Source of the DNA: Myxococcales bacterium
Lineage (GTDB): Bacteria > Myxococcota_A > Polyangia > Polyangiales > Houyiibacteriaceae
Direction of reading: 5' to 3'
DNA: 46,721 nt
NCBI GenBank assembly: GCA_019637115.1
Contig: JAHBWH010000054.1
Location: 1-46,721, forward strand
Part shown: positions 3,371-16,033 of the stretch, in pieces
How positions within the stretch are numbered: position 1 is the first letter of the stretch
Layout: every line of letters starts with the position of its first letter
Position numbers and translations under genes: made by a program
Notes under the pieces: generated by a model
The model's database searches: none
The model's input: the letters and a program-made list of their open reading frames with translations, nothing else
Told to the model about the DNA's origin: nothing

Positions 3371-5125
<1,755 letters not shown>

Positions 5126-5198
5126 CCCACCCGTTGCCCGTGCGGCACGACGGCGTCACACTCGCGACACGCATCTCTCCCACGATGCGGCACATCTC

Positions 5199-5894
5199 AT
5201 GGGCTCACGGATCCTCGTCGTCGAAGACGAAAGCGACCTCGCAGAGCTCGTCGCTTTCAACCTGAAGCAGGCCGGCCACGTCGTCACGACGGCGGGCACC
5301 GGCGCGACGGCCCTCGCCGAGATCCGGCGGCAGCGGCCGGACCTCATCGTGCTCGACGTGATGCTGCCGGACATCACGGGGCTCGAGGTCTGCCGGCGGC
5401 TGCGGCGCGACGAGGGCACGGCGCGCATCCCCGTCGTGATGCTGACGGCGAAGGGCGAAGAGGTCGACCGCGTCGTCGGCTTCGAGGTCGGCGCGGACGA
5501 CTACGTCACCAAGCCCTTCTCCCCGCGCGAGCTGCTCTTGCGCGTCGAGGCCATCCTCCGCCGGCTGGGCACCACGGAGGAGGAAGGCCCGCAGACCTTC
5601 ACCGTCGGCTCGCTCGTGCTCGACATCGCGGGGCACCGCGTGACGGTCGAGGGCGAAGAGATCGGGCTGACCGCGCTCGAGTTCCGCCTCTTGCTCGACC
5701 TCGCGAAGCGGCGCGGCCGCGTCCAATCCCGCAACGCGCTCCTCGAGCGCGTCTGGGGTTACGCGCCCGGCATCGAGACGCGGACGGTCGACACCCACGT
5801 CAAACGCCTCCGCGAGAAGCTCGGCGCCGCGTCGGACTACATCGAGACCGTCCGCGGCGTCGGCTACCGGATCCGCTCCGACGTCCCCTCCTGA
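5199..5894 (+). CDS. phoB: PhoB-family response regulator
   Basis: 231 residues. Receiver domain at 1-120: acidic pocket VVEDE, phospho-acceptor Asp53 in LIVLDVMLPD, the switch threonine in VVMLTAKGEE and the lysine in DDYVTKPFSP. An OmpR/PhoB winged-helix DNA-binding domain occupies about 132-228 and ends RTVDTHVKRLREKLG then YIETVRGVGYRI. I chose ATG 5199 because the receiver fold begins at once (GSRILVVEDE); the frame is open back to 5103 but that part is not family-like. It lies 73 bases after argG and 37 bases before its kinase. The phosphate assignment is by overall similarity only, as no pst or phoU genes are present. Confidence 0.88.
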   Translation: MGSRILVVEDESDLAELVAFNLKQAGHVVTTAGTGATALAEIRRQRPDLIVLDVMLPDITGLEVCRRLRRDEGTARIPVVMLTAKGEEVDRVVGFEVGADDYVTKPFSPRELLLRVEAILRRLGTTEEEGPQTFTVGSLVLDIAGHRVTVEGEEIGLTALEFRLLLDLAKRRGRVQSRNALLERVWGYAPGIETRTVDTHVKRLREKLGAASDYIETVRGVGYRIRSDVPS

Positions 5895-5931
5895 CGTCCC
5901 CGCCTGACGGCGCCTCGGCGCGACGGCGCTC

Positions 5932-7770
5932 ATGTCACCGGCTGGACGCTTGCTCCGCGCCCCCTCTGCGCCGCACGCTGAGCCCGTCGTGGCCGCCCCG
6001 ACCCCCAGCACGCCCGCTTCGCCGCCCGCCGACCGCCCGAGCCTGGTCCGTGGGCTCACCCGCACGCGGCCGCACGGGGGCCTGCGGCGCAACCTCGTCG
6101 GCACGGTCGTCACGGCGATCGGCACGCTGATCTTCGCCCTGCTCCTGCTCGAGGACCCCCTCGTGGAGCATCGCGTGGCCCAGCTCGCGCAAGAGACCAT
6201 CGGGGACGCGATGGGGGTCGCCCTCGAGCGCCTCGACCAAGGGCTCGCGCCGGACGTCGTCGCGGACCTCGTCGGCGCGGAGACCCACACGCGCATCACC
6301 ATCCTCGGCGCCGAGGGTGTCGTGGTCGGCGACAGCGGGCTCGACGGCGACGCGCTCGCGACGGCGACCGGCCTCGTGCACGAGGAGGCCTACGCGGCCT
6401 TCCTCGCGGGTCGCCGCCGCGCCTCGCGCAGCAACGGCGTGCACGTCGCCTTCGAGCGCCACGGCGACCTCGTCGTGCAGGTGGTCCGCTCGACCGCGCT
6501 CTCCGATCGGGTGCACGAGACGGTGCGCGAGCTGCTCGTCATCGGCGGTCTGATGGCGGCGCTCGTCGCGATCTTCCTCACGCTCGTGCTCGGGCGAACG
6601 CTCATCGAGCCGGCGAAAGAGCTGACCCAGGTCGCCGACGCCCTCGCCGCGGGCGACCTCAGCGCCCGCTCGCGCAGCGAGCGCGACGACGAGCTCGGCG
6701 CCATCGGGCGCGCGCTCGATCGCATGGCCGACCAGCTCGCCGATCGCATCGAGAACCTGCACGCCGAGCAAGACCGGCTCCGCACGGTGCTCAACTCGAT
6801 GGTCGAGGCCGTCTTCGTGACCGACAGCCTCGGCCGCATCATCGCGACCAACCAGGCGCTCGACAGGCTCCTCGGCGCCGACGTCCTCGGCCTGACGGCG
6901 ATGGAGGCGCTCAAGAGCCCCGAGCTGCACGACGCCGTGCGCACGGCGCGCAAGGGCGAGCCCTGCCACGTCGAGCTCGAGATCCGTCTCGGCGACCTCT
7001 ACTCCTTCAGCGCCCACGTAGCGCCGCTGCAAGCCGGCGCGGGCGTCGTCGCCGTACTCCACGACGTCAGCAAGCTCCGCGAGACGGATCGGCTGCGCCG
7101 CGACTTCGTCGCGAACGCGAGCCACGAGCTACGCACGCCGCTGACCGCGATCCGCGGCTTCGCGGAGACCCTGCGCGACGGCGCGCTCGAGGACCCGGAC
7201 GCGGCCCGCCGCTTCCTCGACGTGATCTTGCGGCACACGCTGCGCCTGCAGGCGCTGGTGGCCGACCTCACGGCGCTCTCGCGCGCCGAGTCGCCGGACC
7301 AGCACCTCGAGCTCGAGGACGTCGACGTCGGCCGGGCCGCGATGGAGGTCGTCCGCGGCCTCTCGTCCAAGGCCGAGCAGCGGCGCGTGCAGCTCGTCTT
7401 CGAGCCCCCACCCGCGACGCTCGTCGTCCACGCGAACGAGCGCGGCCTCGATCAGGTGCTCATCAACCTGGTCGACAACGCGATCAAGTACACGCCCGAG
7501 GGCACGAGCGTCCGCGTCCGCGTACGCGACGTCGACGACCACGTCCGGCTCGACATCAACAACCCCGGACCGCCCATCGCCCCGCAGCACCTCGAGCGCG
7601 TCTTCGAGCGCTTCTATCGCATCGACGAGGGCCGCTCTCGCGACGTCGGCGGCACGGGCCTCGGGCTGTCGATCGTCAAGCACCTCTGCGCGCAGATGGG
7701 CGCAGAGGTGAAGGTCCAGAGCAACGACGCCGACGGAACCACCTTCTCGGTCCTCTTCCCCACCCCGTAG
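5932..7770 (+). CDS. phoR: PhoR-type sensor histidine kinase
   Basis: 612 residues. Order of parts: a Pro/Ala-rich N-terminus, a membrane helix at about 54-72, an extracytoplasmic sensor segment of about 125 residues, a second helix at about 200-221, a HAMP linker (about 222-275), a PAS domain (about 285-385), HisKA with the phospho-accepting His398 in NASHELRTPLT, and a HATPase domain with N-box LVDNAIKYTPEG and G-boxes DVGGTGLGLSIVKH. This is the PhoR/WalK-like architecture with a long extracytoplasmic domain. It is the evident partner of the adjacent response regulator. The signal sensed cannot be told from sequence. ftsH follows after 34 bases, with its own -10-like element. Confidence 0.9.
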   Translation: MSPAGRLLRAPSAPHAEPVVAAPTPSTPASPPADRPSLVRGLTRTRPHGGLRRNLVGTVVTAIGTLIFALLLLEDPLVEHRVAQLAQETIGDAMGVALERLDQGLAPDVVADLVGAETHTRITILGAEGVVVGDSGLDGDALATATGLVHEEAYAAFLAGRRRASRSNGVHVAFERHGDLVVQVVRSTALSDRVHETVRELLVIGGLMAALVAIFLTLVLGRTLIEPAKELTQVADALAAGDLSARSRSERDDELGAIGRALDRMADQLADRIENLHAEQDRLRTVLNSMVEAVFVTDSLGRIIATNQALDRLLGADVLGLTAMEALKSPELHDAVRTARKGEPCHVELEIRLGDLYSFSAHVAPLQAGAGVVAVLHDVSKLRETDRLRRDFVANASHELRTPLTAIRGFAETLRDGALEDPDAARRFLDVILRHTLRLQALVADLTALSRAESPDQHLELEDVDVGRAAMEVVRGLSSKAEQRRVQLVFEPPPATLVVHANERGLDQVLINLVDNAIKYTPEGTSVRVRVRDVDDHVRLDINNPGPPIAPQHLERVFERFYRIDEGRSRDVGGTGLGLSIVKHLCAQMGAEVKVQSNDADGTTFSVLFPTP

Positions 7771-7804
7771 CGCGCGCGACGAGGGTACGTGCTACACCCG
7801 GAGC

Positions 7805-9634
7805 GTGCCCAAGATCCCCCGGTGGTGGTGGATTCTGCCGCTCGTCCTGATCGCGCTCTTCGCGTCCCTGCAGCTCCAAGGGACGGGCCGTGAGATGCGC
7901 TACGACGAGCTGCTCGCGAAGGTACGCGCGGGCGAGGTGCGCTCGGTCGTCCTCGACGGGCAGACCGTCCGGGGGGAGCTGCGGGTCGACGGCGAGAGCG
8001 ACGACGCCGCGCGCCCCGCGCGCCCTTCGGAGCGCCACCAGACCACGTTCACGACCGCGCGGCCCGTCGACGACGACCGCCTCGTGCCACTCCTCGAGGA
8101 GCACGGCGTGCGCATCCGCGTCATCCCCAAGAGCGACGGCTCGTGGATGACCTGGATCTGGCTGCTCCTGCCGCTCCTGCTCCTGCTCAGCCTCTTCGCG
8201 CGGATGCAGGCGGGCGCGGGGGGCGCGCCGGGCGCGATGGCCTTCGGCAAGTCGAAGGGGAAGATCTTCACGCAGCGCGACATCAGCGTGAACTTCGACG
8301 ACGTCGCGGGGGTCGACGAGGCGAAGGCCGAGCTACGCGAGGTCATCGACTTCTTGAAGAACCCCGACAAATACCGGGCGCTCGGCGCGCGCATCCCCAA
8401 GGGGATCTTGCTCGTCGGCCCGCCCGGCACGGGCAAGACCTTGCTCGCGCGCGCGGTCGCCGGCGAGGCGCGGGTGCCCTTCATCTCGATCAGCGGCTCG
8501 GAGTTCGTCGAGATGTTCGTGGGCGTGGGCGCCGCCCGCGTGCGCGACCTCTTCGAGCAGGCGACCCAGACCGCCCCCGCGATCGTCTTCATCGACGAGC
8601 TCGACGCGCTCGGCCGCGCGCGCGGCCCCGGCAACATGCCGGGCAGCAACGAGGAGCGCGAGCAGACGCTCAACCAGCTCCTCGTCGAGCTCGACGGCTT
8701 CGAGCCGCTCGGCGAGGGCCGCGGCGTCGTCGTCATCCTGGCCGCCACCAACCGCCCCGAGGTGCTCGACCCCGCGCTCCTGCGCGCGGGCCGCTTCGAC
8801 CGCCAGGTCGTGGTCGACCGGCCCGACCGCATCGGGCGGCGGATGATCCTCGGCGTGCACACCCGCAAGGTCCCGCTCGATCCGAGCGTCGACCTCGAGG
8901 TGGTCGCCCAGCGCACGCCCGGCTTCGCCGGCGCCGACCTCGCCAACCTCGTCAACGAGGCTGCGCTCCGGGCCGCGCGCGAGGGGCGCGACGTGGTGAT
9001 CATGGACGACTTCAGCCACGCGCAGGACCGCGTGCTCGCGGGGCTCGAGCAGCGCTCGAAGCTCATCGACGAGGAGGAGCGCAAGCGCGTCGCCTACCAC
9101 GAGTGCGGCCACGCGCTCGCCGCGCGCTTCGGGGGCAGCGGCACCAAGGTCCACAAGGTCAGCATCGTCCCGCGCTCGGTCGGCGCGCTCGGCTTCACGA
9201 TGCAGCTCCCCGAGCGCGAGCGGCGCCTGTTCACGCGCTCGCAGCTCGAGGCGCAGATGGTCGCGCTCGTCGGTGGCCGCGCGGCGGAAGAGCTCGTCTT
9301 CGGCGAGGCCTCGACGGGCGCCGCGGACGACCTCCGCAAGGTCACCGACCTCGCCCGCGCGATGGTCCTCGAGCACGGCCTCTCCGAGGCGGTCGGCCCC
9401 GTGTCCATCGAGCGCCGGACGACCTACCTCGGAGGGCTCGGCGGCGGCGTCGAGGTCGGCGGGAAGACGGCCGACCTCGCCGACGCCGAGGTGCGACGCC
9501 TCGTCGACGAGGCGCTGCGGCGGGCTCGGAACATCCTCGAGACGCACCGCGAGCGCCTCGAACGGATGGTCGAGGTGCTCCTCGAGACCGAGGTCCTCGA
9601 GGGCGACGCGCTCGACGAGTTCCTGCAGGCCTGA
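7805..9634 (+). CDS. ftsH: ATP-dependent zinc metalloprotease FtsH
   Basis: 609 residues from GTG 7805. It is an inner-membrane AAA+ protease that extracts and degrades membrane and short-lived cytosolic proteins. Two membrane helices (about 7-25 and 118-136) flank a periplasmic segment of roughly 90 residues. The AAA module has Walker A GPPGTGKT (about 205-212), Walker [12 protein letters not shown] and the arginine-finger region [15 protein letters not shown]. The peptidase domain has the zinc motif HECGH (about 432) and the downstream acidic ligand region STGAADDL (about 504). The C-terminal tail is shorter than in E. coli (644 residues). TACACC ends 6 bases before the GTG and there is no clear Shine-Dalgarno. 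Confidence 0.95.
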
Positions 9635-9637
9635 GGG

Positions 9638-9652
9638 CAGTACTCAGTACTG
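9638..9652. repeat. 15-bp near-perfect palindrome at a convergent junction
   Basis: CAGTACT and AGTACTG are inverted repeats around one central base. The element begins 3 bases after the ftsH stop and contains the stop codon of the lipoxygenase-like gene from the other strand. It could form a small bidirectional hairpin, but it has no T-tract and a 1-base loop, so it is not a typical terminator. Confidence 0.35.
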
Positions 9653-11467
9653 GATGCTCGACGCGAGCTCCGCCGAGCTCGGGAAGCCGGAGCCCTCCCA
9701 GATGCCGTCGAGGCCCTCCATCCGCTCGAACAAGCGCGCCTCGGCCGCCCGCGCGCGCGGCACGCGGAACCCGTAGCGGACGTCGCGCAGCGACCCGAGG
9801 ATGACGGGCGCGAAGAACATCGCGTGGCAGAGCCGATGGCGAAAGTGGTCCTCCGGGCTCACCAGCTGCGCGACGTCGAGGGACGCCGGCGTGACCTGAT
9901 CGGGCGCCGGCGCCCGCAGGCGCCAGGGCATCTCGGCGAGCGGGATGGCCGCGTAGCTGTGGTGATCGGCCGTGTGGTAGACGCTCTGGGCGCAGATCAC
10001 GCTCGCGAGCGTCCAACCGAGCGCGCCACCGCGCGTCAGCTCCTCGCCCGAGGGGAAGCCGGGCACCCACGTCCCGATGTGCTCGGCCCATTTGTGGACG
10101 GCGTGGACGCCGTCGTCTTCCGGCGGCAGGGCGTCGAGGACCTCGGCGACGAAGGCGCTCACGACGTCGTGCCACGCGCGGCGGTAGCGCCCGTAGATCA
10201 CGTGCTCGCCGAAGAGCCCGTCGCCGAAACGATAGGGCGCGTAGTCCGCGACGCCCTCCACGCCGTCGCGGCCGGCCTGGACGAGCGCGTGTATGCCCTC
10301 GGTCGTGTAGGGGAAGGGCGTGTAGATCTCGCGCTGCGAGTTGTGGAGCACCGAGCGGCGGTGGTGGATCACCGACTCGTTCAGGCCGGCGGTGTAGCGG
10401 GTGTGGGGCTCGAGCAGGCGCGAGATCACGTGGCCGCGCGGCAGCACCGCCCGCGTGACGGCGCGGATCGTGTCGAAGGGGAAGTGCAGCCGCGGGTGCT
10501 CGGTCCCGACGAGCCGCCCCTGCGCGCCCTGGAGGACGAAGTACTTCGCGAGCGACCACGACGCCCCCTCACCGGGGGTCACGACGCGCTCGCCGACGCG
10601 GATCGCCGCCGCGCGCCACGCCCCGCCCTCGCGGAGGAGCAAGGTCACGGTCGGCGCGACGTGGCAGCCCGGCAGCGCGTGCTCGCGCGGCGCGAAGGAG
10701 CAGTCGACCTTCGCGACGTCGCGCGCGTCGGCCAGCGCGCCGAACGCGCGGCGGTCCTGGGGCTCGAGCCGGAGCGAGACGAACTGGCCGAGGCTCGTCT
10801 CCGTCAGCAACGCCGCGAAGCGCGCGTCGTCCACCGGCACGAGCCGCGGCCCTCGCAGCGCGTGCTTCGCCGCGCTGGGCGTGAGGCGGATGATCTGGCC
10901 GAGGTAGCGCGTCACGTTCGCGCGCACGTGGTCGATGCGCTCCTCCTCGTCGAGGTGCAGCACGGGTGCGTAGAGGCCGGGGCTGACGACTGGCGGCTGC
11001 GGCCAGGGCGCGTCGACGCCGGGCGGTGTCGGCGCAGGCGGCGCGTCGATTTGCCCCGACTCCCAAGGCAGCGGCTCGACGATCGGCGAGTCGATCCAGC
11101 TCTCGGGCGAGCGCTGCAGCACGCCGAAGCCCTGGAGAAGCGCGTGGAGGCGCGGGGTGCGCGCGGCGGCGCCCACCTTGGCCGCCGCGGACAGCACGCC
11201 GACCCCGCGATGGAGCGGATCGTCGACCCGCTCGAGCGCCGCGCGGACGATCGAGCGACGTGCGCCCTTCCGATGAACGCCCGATGCAGGGGCGCGCGGC
11301 GCCGCAGCCTCGCCCTCCTCCGCCTCCCACGTGCGGGTCCCCGAAGGGCGCGGCACCACGTCGGAGTGCGATAGGGCGCGCCGCGAGGCGTCGGGCTCCG
11401 CGCCACTTTCAATCGCGGAGACACCGACGTGGGCTCTCCGCGAAGAGGACCGCTTGGAAGACGACAT
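9644..11467 (-). CDS. Lipoxygenase-family protein with altered metal-ligand positions
   Basis: 607 residues from ATG 11467, which has a good GGGAGG ribosome-binding site; the frame is open to 11530. The N-terminal 130 residues are basic, low in complexity and have no signal peptide. The rest reads as a lipoxygenase domain: WSLAKYFV, then EHPRLHFPFD, then HVISRLLEPHTRYTAGLN (family pattern HP-x2-x-LL-x-PH-x-RYT-x-IN), then HTADHHSY, which matches the second iron motif HxxxN/H. Lipoxygenases add O2 to polyunsaturated fatty acids using non-haem iron. Aligned by eye, the first ligand His of the usual HxxxxH pair falls on Leu, leaving an HxxxH instead, and the chain ends SSIQY rather than in the usual terminal Ile. 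Catalysis may therefore differ or be lost. It is transcribed alone and is convergent with ftsH. Confidence 0.7.
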   Translation of the reverse strand: MSSSKRSSSRRAHVGVSAIESGAEPDASRRALSHSDVVPRPSGTRTWEAEEGEAAAPRAPASGVHRKGARRSIVRAALERVDDPLHRGVGVLSAAAKVGAAARTPRLHALLQGFGVLQRSPESWIDSPIVEPLPWESGQIDAPPAPTPPGVDAPWPQPPVVSPGLYAPVLHLDEEERIDHVRANVTRYLGQIIRLTPSAAKHALRGPRLVPVDDARFAALLTETSLGQFVSLRLEPQDRRAFGALADARDVAKVDCSFAPREHALPGCHVAPTVTLLLREGGAWRAAAIRVGERVVTPGEGASWSLAKYFVLQGAQGRLVGTEHPRLHFPFDTIRAVTRAVLPRGHVISRLLEPHTRYTAGLNESVIHHRRSVLHNSQREIYTPFPYTTEGIHALVQAGRDGVEGVADYAPYRFGDGLFGEHVIYGRYRRAWHDVVSAFVAEVLDALPPEDDGVHAVHKWAEHIGTWVPGFPSGEELTRGGALGWTLASVICAQSVYHTADHHSYAAIPLAEMPWRLRAPAPDQVTPASLDVAQLVSPEDHFRHRLCHAMFFAPVILGSLRDVRYGFRVPRARAAEARLFERMEGLDGIWEGSGFPSSAELASSIQY

Positions 11468-11740: not shown

Positions 11741-12625
11741 CTACCGCGCCTCGGCCCGGCGGAGTAGCTCTCGCGCGAGCAGCTCGAGGTCCAGGTTCAT
11801 CAAGTCGACTTCGGTCTCGAGCTCTTCGAGCATCGCCTCGCGAAGTCGCAGCTGCTCGACGTCGTAGTCACCTCCGTCGCCGAAGAGCAGCGCCTCGAGC
11901 GCCGCCCGCTCTCGCTCGGCCGGAGCCTGCGCCTCGATGAGCTCGCGCCAGCGCCCACGGATCTGCTCGCGCGCCGACCGCTCCGCGCCGACCCGAGGCG
12001 TGACGAGCAGCTGCCCGACCGACGTGGGGAGCGCGTGCTCCTCCTCGCGCCACAAGGCCCGCAGGAGGTTGCGCTGGTGCGTGATCGACACCCGCGGGGC
12101 TGGACGGACGGCGGCCACGACGCCGAGCACCGCCGACGCCACGCCCCCCACGATGGCGACCACCGGCGCCGCGCGGTGGTTGTCGTCCGCGAGCTCGATG
12201 ATCCCCGCCCCGAGCCCGGAGATCGCCCCGATCACGATGGAGGCGATCGTGAAGCGCCGCTCGCTCGTCCGGGCGCGCTCGACGAGCTCGTCCTGGAGAT
12301 CCTCGAGTTGGTCTCCGAGGCAGTCGACCTCGGCCATCGTCGCCGCGAGCTCGCTGCGAAGCAGCGAGAGACGCGCGAGCGCGGCGATCTCGCGCCCCTC
12401 CTCCGAGAGCACTCGCCCCATGCGGCCCGCCCGCGCCACGCGCGCGAGCTCCGGATCCATCGCCGCGTCCCCCTCGAACGACCCGTCGTCCAAGCGCTCC
12501 GCGGGCATCGGGACCGAGCGGGCACATCGCGCGTCGTTCCGCAGGTGCGTCCGCGTGCTCGCGCCGAGCGAGCCGGCGCACCCCATCAAGATCCCGAAGG
12601 ACGCGAGGATCGAGAGCTCACGCAT
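11741..12625 (-). CDS. Putative lipoprotein with coiled-coil and paired hydrophobic segments
   Basis: 294 residues from ATG 12625. The N-terminus is a lipoprotein signal (basic MRELS, hydrophobic core, GILMGC lipobox). A helical region rich in Leu/Glu/Arg follows at about 75-130 and probably forms a coiled coil (LRSELAATMAEVDCLGDQLE). Two hydrophobic segments come next (FTIASIVIGAISGLGAG and VVAIVGGVASAVLGVVAAV) separated by a short polar loop, then an acidic, Leu-rich C-terminal helical stretch. I do not recognise a family. The gene lies 43 bases downstream of the large haem-motif lipoprotein gene on the same strand and may be co-transcribed, but a TACGCC hexamer 7 bases before its ATG suggests its own promoter. 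Confidence 0.7.
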   Translation of the reverse strand: MRELSILASFGILMGCAGSLGASTRTHLRNDARCARSVPMPAERLDDGSFEGDAAMDPELARVARAGRMGRVLSEEGREIAALARLSLLRSELAATMAEVDCLGDQLEDLQDELVERARTSERRFTIASIVIGAISGLGAGIIELADDNHRAAPVVAIVGGVASAVLGVVAAVRPAPRVSITHQRNLLRALWREEEHALPTSVGQLLVTPRVGAERSAREQIRGRWRELIEAQAPAERERAALEALLFGDGGDYDVEQLRLREAMLEELETEVDLMNLDLELLARELLRRAEAR

Positions 12626-12668
12626 GCGCCTCGGCGTAGCACCAACCGGGCGCTCGGGCGCGGAGCGC

Positions 12669-14759
12669 TCAGCTCGGCGGGCGGAGGCAGACGCGGCCCA
12701 CGCACTCGAGCCCTTCACAGCAGTCCTCGGTGGTCGTGCACGTCTCGCCGTCGTTGCGGCAGCGATCCGGCGGTGGCGGCGAGCAGACGAGCGCGCCGCT
12801 CTCGTCGGGGCGGCAGTCCCCGCCGCAGCACTCGCTGCCGACGCTGCACGACTCGCCGTCCGGGCGACAAGGGCGCGGCGCCCAGAACGCGCTGATGTTG
12901 CGAGAGGTCGTCCGTTGGCCCGAGAGCCAGTACGGCGGGCTCGACGGATCGGTGCCGGGCGGAGCGTCCTTGCGGATCGCCGTGACCCAGATCTGCTGGA
13001 AGTCCGTGCCCGCCGTGCCGACCTGCGCGTTGCCGTAGTCGCGACGCGAGAGGAACGAGAGCCAGAAGTAGCCGCCCTGGTCGAAGGGCGAGAAGCGCGG
13101 CTGGAAGTTCGTGGTCGAGGGCCCGTTGGCGGCGTCGAGGCGCACCACTCCCGCGCCGTCGCGGCCCATCACATAGAGCGCCGACTGCTGATCCTCGCTG
13201 CGCGTGCCCGAGCCGTGCGCGAACGCGATGTGGCGCGAGTCGGGTGACCACGAGGGGTAGCTGTCGGCGTTTCCGGGAGGCGACGAGCCCGCGAGGCTGG
13301 CGCCCGCGTGGATGACGCGCGAGGCGCCGAAGGTGTCGGGGCCCGTGACGTCGAGCGTGCCGATGTCGCCCGTCGTGAAGGCGCCGCCCCAGGCGTTCGC
13401 GTTGGTCACGTAGGCGATGCGGGTGCCGTCCGGCGACCAATCGGGCTGCGTGACGTTCGTCGGCAGCGTGCCGGTCACGGGGACGAGCGCGCCCGTGAGC
13501 GGGTCCATGAAGCGCATGATCCCCGCGGGGCCGGTGCCCTCGAAGCTCGAGAGCACGAGGCGGGTGTCGTCGGGGCTCCAGGCCGAGAACCACCAGCGCG
13601 TGCTCGTCGGCTCGACCGTCTGCAGCGGGAAGATCGAGGGCGCGGGCGCGCCCGTGAGGTCGGTCGTGAGGTCGAAGACTGCGCCGATGTTCTCGCCGCC
13701 GCCGAGGCGCCCCGCCATGTAGCGCCCGCTGTTCGAGACCGAGTGGCAGCCCACGCAGCTAGCGCCGTCCATCGCGGCGGGCGGCGAGGGCATAAACTCG
13801 TCGGGGGTCGCCGTGCCGTCGTCGATGCGCACGATGCGGCCGCGCTGGATGTCCCAGTAGTAGACACTACCCGTGAGCGCTGCGCGGGCGAAGAGCACCT
13901 GCCGAGGGGTGCCCGCGATGGCCTCTCCGGTCGCGGCCTCCCAGCGGTCGACGGTGATGGAGGCGCGGGCGTCGGGCTCGGTCTGGGCGACCGCCCGCCA
14001 CGCCTCGGCGTTCACGAGCCAGTGCAGGCCGAAGCCCGCGCCGCCGTGCGCGAGGTAGGCGACGACACGCACGCTCGGCTTCGCGAGCGTGACGCGGAAG
14101 AGGTCGCCCTCGACGCCCCGGGTCCACTGGATGTCGGCGGGGTAGACGTTCTGCGGCATCACGGCGCCGTCGAGCGGGTAGACCAACCCCGCGCGGCGGG
14201 CGTCGTCGGCGACCGGCGCCGCGAAGCGGGCCTCGACGTCGGCCGGCACCCCGGGACCGACCAGCTCGCGCTCGAGCCGCACGGTGACGCTGGCGCTCGC
14301 CGTGAGCTCGCCCCCGCTCGAGCTCACCGTCGCCGTGATCGTGGCCGCGCCGCCGATGACGCCGTTCGCCGAGAAGGTGCCGCTGCCGAGGTCGAGGTCG
14401 CCGATGGAGCGCGCGTCGATGGCCCAGGAGATGCCCGCGCCGAGGCCGATCTCGCTGCCGTCCTCGCGCACGCCGACGACCTCGAAGTCCTGCGTCGGTC
14501 GCTCTCCGGCCCGCGCCACGAGGCTCACCATCGGGGGCTCGACGCGGATCGAGCTCACGGGCGAGACGACGACGTCCGGCCGCATCGGGTCGGCGTCCAT
14601 CGCGCCGCCATCGCCCGTGCCGCCTACGACGCAGCGTTCATCGACGCAGACGCGACCGCTCGGGCAGTCGGCGGTGGTGACGCAGCTCCCCGAGGGGGTG
14701 GGGCTGGAGGGTGAGCAAGCGAGAGCCGCCAGCGCGGCGAGCGAGAGGATCCGGCGCAT
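12669..14759 (-). CDS. Lipoprotein with CXXCH haem motif, WSPD propeller and Cys-rich tail
   Basis: 696 residues. The lipoprotein signal ends LAALACS (Cys15). A small Cys-rich unit follows (CVTTADCPSGRVCVDERC). Residues about 70-165 look like a bacterial Ig-like (BIG2) domain. At 335-339 is CVGCH, a c-type haem attachment motif, in the sequence DGASCVGCHSVSNSGRY. After it come TolB/PD40 propeller repeats: WSPDDTRL, WSPDGTRI, WSPDSRHI and a diverged QPRFSPFDQGG. The last 65 residues hold two Cys-rich repeats of the type CRPDGESCSVGSECCGG. Myxobacteria have many such surface lipoproteins, and the haem would be attached in the periplasm. Function unknown; an electron-transfer or binding role is inference. 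TATGCT ends 6 bases before the ATG. Confidence 0.82.
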   Translation of the reverse strand: MRRILSLAALAALACSPSSPTPSGSCVTTADCPSGRVCVDERCVVGGTGDGGAMDADPMRPDVVVSPVSSIRVEPPMVSLVARAGERPTQDFEVVGVREDGSEIGLGAGISWAIDARSIGDLDLGSGTFSANGVIGGAATITATVSSSGGELTASASVTVRLERELVGPGVPADVEARFAAPVADDARRAGLVYPLDGAVMPQNVYPADIQWTRGVEGDLFRVTLAKPSVRVVAYLAHGGAGFGLHWLVNAEAWRAVAQTEPDARASITVDRWEAATGEAIAGTPRQVLFARAALTGSVYYWDIQRGRIVRIDDGTATPDEFMPSPPAAMDGASCVGCHSVSNSGRYMAGRLGGGENIGAVFDLTTDLTGAPAPSIFPLQTVEPTSTRWWFSAWSPDDTRLVLSSFEGTGPAGIMRFMDPLTGALVPVTGTLPTNVTQPDWSPDGTRIAYVTNANAWGGAFTTGDIGTLDVTGPDTFGASRVIHAGASLAGSSPPGNADSYPSWSPDSRHIAFAHGSGTRSEDQQSALYVMGRDGAGVVRLDAANGPSTTNFQPRFSPFDQGGYFWLSFLSRRDYGNAQVGTAGTDFQQIWVTAIRKDAPPGTDPSSPPYWLSGQRTTSRNISAFWAPRPCRPDGESCSVGSECCGGDCRPDESGALVCSPPPPDRCRNDGETCTTTEDCCEGLECVGRVCLRPPS

Positions 14760-14815: not shown

Positions 14816-16033
14816 TTACAACAGGACGCGCAAGCCGCCCATCACGCTCGTGAGCGGGACGGCCTCGCCCGGCGCGTCGACGGGGATGAAATTCGCGTAG
14901 TCCACACCGATCGTCAGCTCGACCCCACGGAACAACAAGATCCCGAGGCTCGCCCGCGAGGTGACGAGGAACGCGCGACCGATCATGCCGAAGCCCACGT
15001 CCCCCATCACCGAGACGTGCCCATGCTCGAGCGTGGCGCCGAGCGAGAGCCACTCGGCGCCCGTGACGACGCCCGCCGCGTCGCGGAGCCGATGCACCTT
15101 CGCGCCGACGCGGATCTGGAGGTAGTCGAGGTCCAGCGCGCGGTACGCGAGGCCGAGCCGGCCGAGGCCGAGCGACTCGTCGTTCTCGAGGTCGAAGTAG
15201 CCCGCGTAGCCAAAGTCGACGTCCACCCCACGCGGGAACTGGAGCCGCGTGTCGACGCCGACGCGGAGCGCGCCCAGGGTCGCGGCCCCGAGCTCGAGGC
15301 CGACGTGGGCGCGCATCGGCGCGCGCGGCGCGCGCGCGTCGACGTATGGGTCCGAGTCCGCGCCGACCACGATCACGCCGTCGACGAGCACCTCGTCATG
15401 AACCAGCTCGCCATGGGCCCAGGCGTCATCCACCCAGACCTCCTCGTGGAGCGCCTCGCGTCGCGAAGAGGGGCCCCCGCGGCTCGCCCCGCGCACGGTC
15501 GCCCTCGCGTCGCTCACGCTCGCGTCGGACCCCACCCGACGCGACGCGCCCCGGACGGTGCCGCTCGCGCGCGACGTCGTGCTCTCCTCGTCGTCGGTGT
15601 CGATGCGGACCCGCACCGTCGTGCCGCGGAGGGTCGCCGCGCCGCCCGTGACGCCGACCGTCCCGGGCATGCGCGGGGGCGCGACGTGCGCGGCGCCCCC
15701 CGGCTGTGCCCGCGGACGATCGGCGAGGATTCGACGGGCCGTGGGGGTCCCGCTGGTCCGCAAGCCCGCCCGCGACGACGACACGCCGGACGACGACGAG
15801 CGACTCGAGGAGGAAGAGTCGGACGACGACGATGAGTCGGACGAGGACGACGAGGAGCGCCTCGAAGACGACGAGCTCGAGGACGACGAGCTCGAAGACG
15901 ACGAGTCACCCCGGACCGCGCCGCCGACCCGGCCGAGCTGCGCCTCTACTCCGCCGGACGCCGCCAGAGACCCCGCCAGCCCCAGGGCGACCAGGGCGAC
16001 GAGGTTGCCTGCTCCTCTCCCTCTCCGTGCCAT
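14816..16033 (-). CDS. Exported protein with poly-Ser tract and C-terminal beta-barrel-like domain
   Basis: 405 residues. It has a Sec signal peptide (basic MARRGRG, hydrophobic core, likely cleavage after GVEA at about residue 31). A Ser tract at 44-87 is broken only by Arg, Asp and a Gly-Val. A linker of about 120 residues is rich in Ser/Thr/Arg. From about 240 to the end, alternating beta-strands ending in aromatic or Leu residues (VGLELGAATLGALRVGVDTRL, the last strand ending GGLRVLL) look like an outer-membrane beta-barrel. I do not recognise a specific family. A TACTCT hexamer ends 5 bases before the ATG. It is divergent from the ion-transport operon. Confidence 0.72.
   Translation of the reverse strand: MARRGRGAGNLVALVALGLAGSLAASGGVEAQLGRVGGAVRGDSSSSSSSSSSSSSSRRSSSSSSDSSSSSDSSSSSRSSSSGVSSSRAGLRTSGTPTARRILADRPRAQPGGAAHVAPPRMPGTVGVTGGAATLRGTTVRVRIDTDDEESTTSRASGTVRGASRRVGSDASVSDARATVRGASRGGPSSRREALHEEVWVDDAWAHGELVHDEVLVDGVIVVGADSDPYVDARAPRAPMRAHVGLELGAATLGALRVGVDTRLQFPRGVDVDFGYAGYFDLENDESLGLGRLGLAYRALDLDYLQIRVGAKVHRLRDAAGVVTGAEWLSLGATLEHGHVSVMGDVGFGMIGRAFLVTSRASLGILLFRGVELTIGVDYANFIPVDAPGEAVPLTSVMGGLRVLL
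15773..15904 (-). repeat. Poly-Ser coding tract
   Basis: Codons 44-87 of the exported protein: runs of 14, 6, 5, 5, 4 and 3 Ser separated by RR, D, D, R and GV. TCG dominates, but TCC, TCT, AGC, AGT and TCA are interspersed, so the amino-acid tract is kept while the DNA repeat is imperfect. This points to selection on the protein rather than recent slippage. Confidence 0.85.

Follow-up and report, generated by a model that had tools for sequence, protein, structure and literature searches.

A Myxococcota clade of lipoxygenase-like proteins with a shortened first putative metal-ligand motif, HxxxH

The locus and its lipoxygenase-like gene

The window, by which we mean the whole stretch of 46,721 nucleotides under analysis, carries on its minus strand a gene for a lipoxygenase (LOX)-like protein (Table 1), the open frame of which extends upstream past the ATG to a GTG. 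The gene converges with that of an FtsH-type protease, with a gap of 9 bases between the two, and the protease, a response regulator and a PAS/HAMP histidine kinase are encoded consecutively on the plus strand. Two open reading frames (ORFs) upstream of the LOX-like gene have no Pfam match at E ≤ 0.01. The LOX-fold domain is preceded by an N-terminal extension of low model confidence, about the second half of which aligns with the relatives L005 and L007. Residue numbers in Table 1 refer to the full-length protein; the numbering of the structural model and of the alignment of close relatives (alignment A1) is lower by 60.

Table 1. Coordinates of the features in the window and of related genes on other contigs
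Feature	Coordinates	Strand	Details	Basis
Response regulator, PAS/HAMP histidine kinase, FtsH-type protease	4911-9634	+	consecutive	
FtsH-type protease gene	7805-9634	+		
LOX-like protein gene	9644-11467	-	607 aa; ATG at 11467, stop TGA 9644-9646	homologues found
LOX-fold domain	9644-11032	-	residues 146-607 (model residues 86-547)	AlphaFold2, VIA-align
C-terminal SIQY	9647-9658	-	terminal Tyr (codon 9647-9649), where LOXs have their terminal carboxylate ligand	
HTADH	9962-9976	-	third His 498 (codon 9974-9976); Asp 501; His 502 at the fourth ligand position (codon 9962-9964)	His/His in 17/17; Asp/Glu at +3 in 17/17
Val 366	10370-10372	-	putative Coffa (Ala/Gly) position	residue counts across the clade
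HPRLH (HxxxH)	10484-10498	-	first His 324 (codon 10496-10498); second His 328 (codon 10484-10486)	HxxxH invariant in 15/15 family A; spacing counts
N-terminal extension	11033-11467	-	residues 1-145	alignment and model
Upstream ORF	11744-12718	-		
Upstream ORF	14819-16033	-		
Second HxxxH copy, own genome (L004)	G000:C161:7990-9441			
Family B gene and divergent LOX-like gene	L077:3127-5067; L077:8912-10492		genome G067	
Neighbour of about 200 aa	L062:7201-7893			
Neighbour of about 200 aa	L063:9854-10450			
Neighbour of about 200 aa	L064:7478-8068			
Neighbour of about 200 aa	L069:10012-10611			
Neighbour of about 200 aa	L070:10049-10675			
Neighbour of about 200 aa	L071:7858-8499			
Neighbour of about 200 aa	L072:9870-10469			
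Neighbour of about 200 aa	L074:7381-8145			

Searches of the own genome, an assembly of 434 contigs, gave no match to the Pfam Lipoxygenase family (PF00305), a negative that falls short of proof of absence; the same family search matches at least 59 of 377 genomes of the phylum, a lower bound because up to three candidates per genome were scored and part of the places was fetched.

Relatives and the spacing of the first ligand motif

Among 33 genomes of the same taxonomic family, the own genome included, three have a match, and the own genome carries two copies. The second HxxxH copy (L004) is 39% identical to the window copy and falls in the subgroup of genes that have a neighbour of about 200 residues, described below. 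Across the phylum sample, 17 of 377 genomes have a match: 14 hold the 15 close members that we call family A (L006, being the same contig stretch as L005, is counted once), two hold the distant members of family B (L017 and L018), and the remaining genome (G383) has only a canonical HxxxxH LOX (L019). Enhygromyxa salina SWB005 is a named member, with 52% identity in the best segment. A single pattern scan of genome contigs, which also reached outside Myxococcota, yielded 30 fitting stretches, one of them a relative (Enhygromyxa salina); 17 pattern matches on viral contigs include no relative, and plasmids gave no match. Genome G067 carries a family B gene and, at a distance of about 4 kb, a divergent LOX-like gene of another clade.

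The sequence HxxxxH is commonly used to recognise a LOX. On an alignment of 85 LOX-like proteins, we measured the distances from a conserved Trp to the first His, from the first to the second His, and from the second His to a downstream Pro-His (PH). They are 20, 4 and 27 residues in all 15 family A proteins, and 20, 4 and 28 in both family B proteins. Among the other LOX-like proteins, the two histidines are 5 residues apart in 68 of 68, the first lies 20 residues from the Trp in 67 (21 in one), and the second lies 27 residues from PH in 47, 28 in 18 and 26 in 3. Since the remaining distances agree, one residue fewer between the two histidines is the sole consistent difference. The preliminary description of this DNA, made by eye, had called the first-shell motif unusual, which the count of HxxxH in 17 of 17 against a spacing of 5 in 68 of 68 bears out. 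It had also described a Leu in place of the first His, with an HxxxH pair shifted downstream. The pair is real (HPRLH), but its first His occupies the normal LOX place (Trp+20 in 17 of 17 clade members), and the change is a residue missing between the two. The Leu precedes the first His of HPRLH by five residues, and it comes into view when that His is aligned with the second His of LOXs, a slip of register.

The motif H-P-x-x-H-F-P is invariant in the 15 aligned family A proteins, in which His 264, Pro 265, His 268, Phe 269, Pro 270, His 438, His 442 and Gln 546 (A1 numbering) do not vary and the last residue is Tyr or Phe. The Pro after the first His is absent in family B. Where LOXs have a third His and a fourth ligand that is either Asn or His (HxxxN/H), all 17 clade members have His and His, so that four histidines are retained in 17 of 17. 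One family A protein (L014) has a doubled first His (HHPLNH), in which an overlapping HxxxxH is also readable.

Ten of 95 hits had been dropped before the 85-row alignment, namely five fragments without a readable motif, one truncated duplicate (the second of L061) and four LOX ORFs (L115, L049, and the second of L060 and of L102), and all four of the latter have HxxxxH. A further set of 48 hits contained 42 new ORFs, of which 40 have HxxxxH with the Trp 20 residues before the first His and two are fragments without the region. The spacing is thus 5 in 44 of 44 further readable ORFs. A doubled His makes HxxxH readable as well in ten of the 40 later ORFs, as HHARTH (L125, L136 and L138) or H(L/I)YRHH (L146-L150, L152 and L154), and in these either spacing could supply the ligands.

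The 17 HxxxH proteins form one side of a branch with SH-aLRT support of 99 in a tree of all 85 rows, and the same branch has 100/100 ultrafast bootstrap/SH-aLRT support in a tree of 67 rows, from which 18 long-branched or near-duplicate rows were removed. The motif columns were excluded from both trees. On each of these unrooted trees the HxxxH/HxxxxH trait changes once, and HxxxH may be derived or ancestral. That a frameshift, a misassembly or the alignment by eye created the odd motif is highly improbable: the Leu of the preliminary description was indeed a product of such an alignment, but HxxxH itself occurs in 15 ORFs of 14 genomes and in the two family B proteins, always at Trp+20. A sequencing or assembly artefact was rejected because all 16 further members of the clade have the motif too, and neither the HxxxH nor the tail is due to chance or sequencing error, since both are common to the relatives.

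Predicted fold, sequence kinship and chain end

The window protein scores 10.9 bits (E = 0.15) against the Pfam Lipoxygenase family (PF00305), below the gathering cut-off of 23.6 bits; its best single-sequence match in the PDB has E = 0.057, and an NCBIfam search with it gave no match. A profile of the 15 family A proteins reaches solved LOX structures, with 3rde as the best (E = 5.6e-8), followed by 6ns2 (E = 1.3e-6) and others below 1e-4, and it also reaches HxxxxH-type LOX genes in other genomes of the phylum. The family pattern, which had been called clear from the single sequence, was therefore overstated on that sequence but is recovered by the 15-member profile. Because 14 of the 15 family A members have no Pfam LOX match at E ≤ 0.1 (the one match has E = 0.024), LOX-type proteins are being overlooked by annotation.

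An AlphaFold2 model computed on alignment A1 (mean pLDDT 82, pTM 0.84) has the fold of the LOX catalytic domain. VIA-align matches it to human 12-LOX (8ghc_A; Z 30.6 over 436 residues, 2.7 Å, 15% identity), and the best 50 of 178 Foldseek matches in the PDB are all lipoxygenases (best E = 1.8e-12). As a control, we modelled an HxxxxH protein of the same phylum (L055, alignment A3; pLDDT 83.7, pTM 0.87), which matches Pseudomonas aeruginosa PA-LOX with Z 43.5, against which the Z of 30.6 of the window model is lower. In both models, the helix that carries the histidine pair extends from two residues ahead of the Trp to 13 residues past the second His, and it comprises 41 residues in the control and 40 in the window protein. 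By DSSP, the control helix is continuous, whereas that of the window protein is broken for one residue at His 264, directly before Pro 265 (mean pLDDT 89 at the break against 96 in the preceding block), so that the turn shows a local distortion in the model and may be kinked instead of being a plain alpha turn.

The iron ligand at the end of a LOX chain is the main-chain carboxylate of the terminal residue, and a change from Ile to Tyr would therefore not by itself abolish the ligand. Residue 547, the last of the model, closes the VIA alignment in 49 of the 50 entries listed (3d3l closes at 546), and falls on residues 839 of soybean LOX, 650 of 8x8f and 569 of CspLOX2, which equal the lengths of those chains. 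The tail of the window protein is thus, in the model, neither truncated nor extended relative to LOX chains. It ends in IQY, as the preliminary description had read, and all 15 aligned family A proteins terminate in Gln followed by Tyr (11) or Phe (4). Both family B proteins end in Cys-Phe. A terminal Ile or Val served as a LOX criterion in a passage of PMC10653942. Only 50 of the 68 HxxxxH relatives end in one of these residues, a count in which some ORFs may be cut, and a terminal Phe or Tyr also occurs outside the clade, in the HxxxxH proteins L039 (Phe) and L086 (Tyr). The preliminary description had made its doubts depend on whether a structure prediction would place the histidines and the tail normally; the tail is so placed in the model, and the helix with the histidine pair agrees at the level of secondary structure, save for the one-residue break at the first His.

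A LOX-derived protein that is no enzyme, and only binds lipid or has a structural role, would account for the low sequence similarity to LOXs and for the changed motif and tail. In its favour, some other divergent LOX-like proteins of the phylum have neither Asn nor His at the fourth ligand position, where 14 of the 68 have Gly (38 have Asn and 10 His). We nevertheless regard a non-enzyme, one of the possibilities raised at the outset, as improbable, because the ligands look neither lost nor displaced: the four histidines are kept in 17 of 17 proteins across a deep divergence, the difference amounts to one residue between two of them, and the model places the chain end at the ligand position. 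Such retention would not be expected of a non-catalytic protein.

A possible metal site and its comparison with known lipoxygenases

The reading that we favour, as a probable one, is that the window protein is a mononuclear non-haem metal enzyme of LOX fold, most likely an iron enzyme, whose clade is the sister group of the sampled canonical LOXs, and that HxxxH, HxxDH and the terminal carboxylate supply its ligands. One helix would offer the metal the two histidines of HxxxH and another helix the two of HxxDH; the last ligand would be the carboxylate with which the main chain closes at the C-terminal Tyr or Phe. Along a regular alpha helix, residues four positions apart (i and i+4) point the same way, and for i and i+5 this holds in a widened pi-type turn; the HxxxxH of LOXs uses such a turn to bring both histidines to the metal, and our literature searches on that turn found no paper on the point. 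With the extra residue of HxxxxH absent, a helix that is ordinary or kinked could serve the same role with an i,i+4 pair, in that removal of one residue and relaxation of the turn would leave both histidines on the metal side.

The predicted reaction would remove a hydrogen from an unsaturated lipid and then insert O2. The own genome encodes seven fatty-acid desaturases scoring above the cut-off, and one contig ends in a PfaA-like frame that reaches 903 bits (curated cut-off 1010). At E ≤ 0.001 the PfaA search also finds a match in 11 of the 14 control genomes, none of them above the cut-off, and it is accordingly only the high score that is suggestive. On account of the desaturases and this frame, unsaturated lipid substrates are plausible for the predicted enzyme. 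Because the other expected metal-binding positions are kept, we take the protein to be probably a working, if predicted, metal enzyme and not a degenerate copy, and the clade, as judged from sequences and model, probably comprises functional, conserved LOX-fold metal enzymes with a shortened first ligand motif. Departing from canonical LOXs in the Pfam score, in HxxxxH and in the terminal Ile or Val, and agreeing with them in the fold, in the third and fourth ligands and in the position of the chain end, the protein is best filed outside the canonical members, as a sister variant that likely works in the manner of a LOX.

The second shell differs across the clade. Val 366 lies at what we take to be the Coffa position, which is Val in 15 of 15 family A and Gly in 2 of 2 family B proteins, and Ala in 55 of the 68 others. 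The position that presumably corresponds to Gln697 in soybean numbering is Tyr or Phe in 17 of 17, with Gln in 38 of 67 others. The residue before the fourth ligand (third His +3) is Asp or Glu in 17 of 17, and Val in 48 others. At the Leu-clamp position, counted without gaps and hence in an uncertain register, Leu occurs in 0 of 17 against 56 of 68. The penultimate residue is Gln throughout family A (15 of 15) and Cys in family B (2 of 2). Such differences speak for a change in specificity or in chemistry; altered specificity of the window enzyme would arise from the Coffa and second-shell positions, and catalysis by the clade could differ or be weak.

With the second shell rebuilt throughout the clade, another chemistry, likewise foreseen in the preliminary description, is a possible though unlikely alternative: the metal would be bound, and the reaction would be other than fatty-acid dioxygenation. 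The protein might, for example, isomerise hydroperoxides, oxygenate sterols, carotenoids or some other hydrophobic compound, or work with manganese. The Asp/Glu, the aromatic residue at the Gln697 position and the Val or Gly at the Coffa position are what such a change might look like, but nothing points specifically to another substrate. An unclassified protein of about 200 residues adjoins eight of the 15 family A genes, divergently in five and downstream in the same direction in three. It has no significant Pfam or NCBIfam match; its leads, to H-NOX (E = 0.02) and, in one of the eight members, to a V4R domain (E = 0.14), might hint at another chemistry, but they are not significant, and in the stretches fetched, some of which end at contig ends, neither the window nor the surroundings of the other seven family A genes show such a neighbour.

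Returning to the favoured reading of a LOX-like metal enzyme, we consider it doubtful, as a stronger form, that the clade is a separate enzyme family of the LOX superfamily in Myxococcota, one that forms the LOX metal site with one helix residue fewer. In that case the second shell (HxxDH, the aromatic residue for Gln697 and, in family A, the invariant Val at the Coffa position) would support an oxidation undescribed for the LOX fold; and if, in addition, the root lay between the two groups, the clade could represent the condition from which insertion of one residue led to the canonical HxxxxH turn. The clade keeps the ligands but lost, or never gained, one residue, which suggests that the HxxxxH spacing is not obligatory. 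It offers a natural system for the role of the widened LOX turn in metal affinity, redox potential, substrate positioning and control of O2.

Within the literature searched, which leaves most subscription journals outside its coverage, we found no paper on an HxxxH lipoxygenase. The ligands of Myxococcus fulvus MF-LOX1 (WP_046712474.1) are printed as His376 and His372, an i,i+4 pair, in a passage of PMC6612559. This may be a misprint, a case of the doubled-His type (HHARTH or H(L/I)YRHH), or another HxxxH LOX.

Bacterial LOXs of solved structure, from Pseudomonas aeruginosa (PA-LOX; 5ir4, 4g32), Cyanothece (CspLOX2; 5med) and Enhygromyxa salina (8x8f), are alike in fold to the window protein (Z 26.9-29.1). 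The phylum of the window genome has many LOX-like genes of the HxxxxH type, and those sampled are split from the window clade by the strongly supported branch and differ at the fourth ligand, which in them is Asn (38 of 68) more often than His (10). One divergent HxxxxH clade of Myxococcota (L078-L085, L087 and L088) shares with the window clade low Pfam scores together with a LOX-type order of motifs, but it keeps HxxxxH, has Gly at the fourth ligand position and mostly ends in ETGVSI/V, and is possibly another non-standard LOX group.

The manganese lipoxygenases (5fx8 from Gaeumannomyces, and 5fno) are also alike in fold, with Z of 28.0 and 27.4, respectively. They end in Val instead of Ile, so that the terminal residue is not Ile in either case, and they retain HxxxxH, in contrast to the HxxxH of the window protein. 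The animal 12/15-LOXs (human 12-LOX 8ghc, porcine 12-LOX 3rde and rabbit 15-LOX 2p0m) align over 436-442 residues at 2.7-3.0 Å, with Z of 29.8-30.6. From these the window protein differs by HxxxH for HxxxxH, by a terminal Tyr for Ile, by an identity of 15-16%, and by the absence of a PLAT domain in its Pfam scan. The chain ends in the same place in both, and mammalian 12/15-LOXs, like the window protein, have a His at the fourth ligand position.
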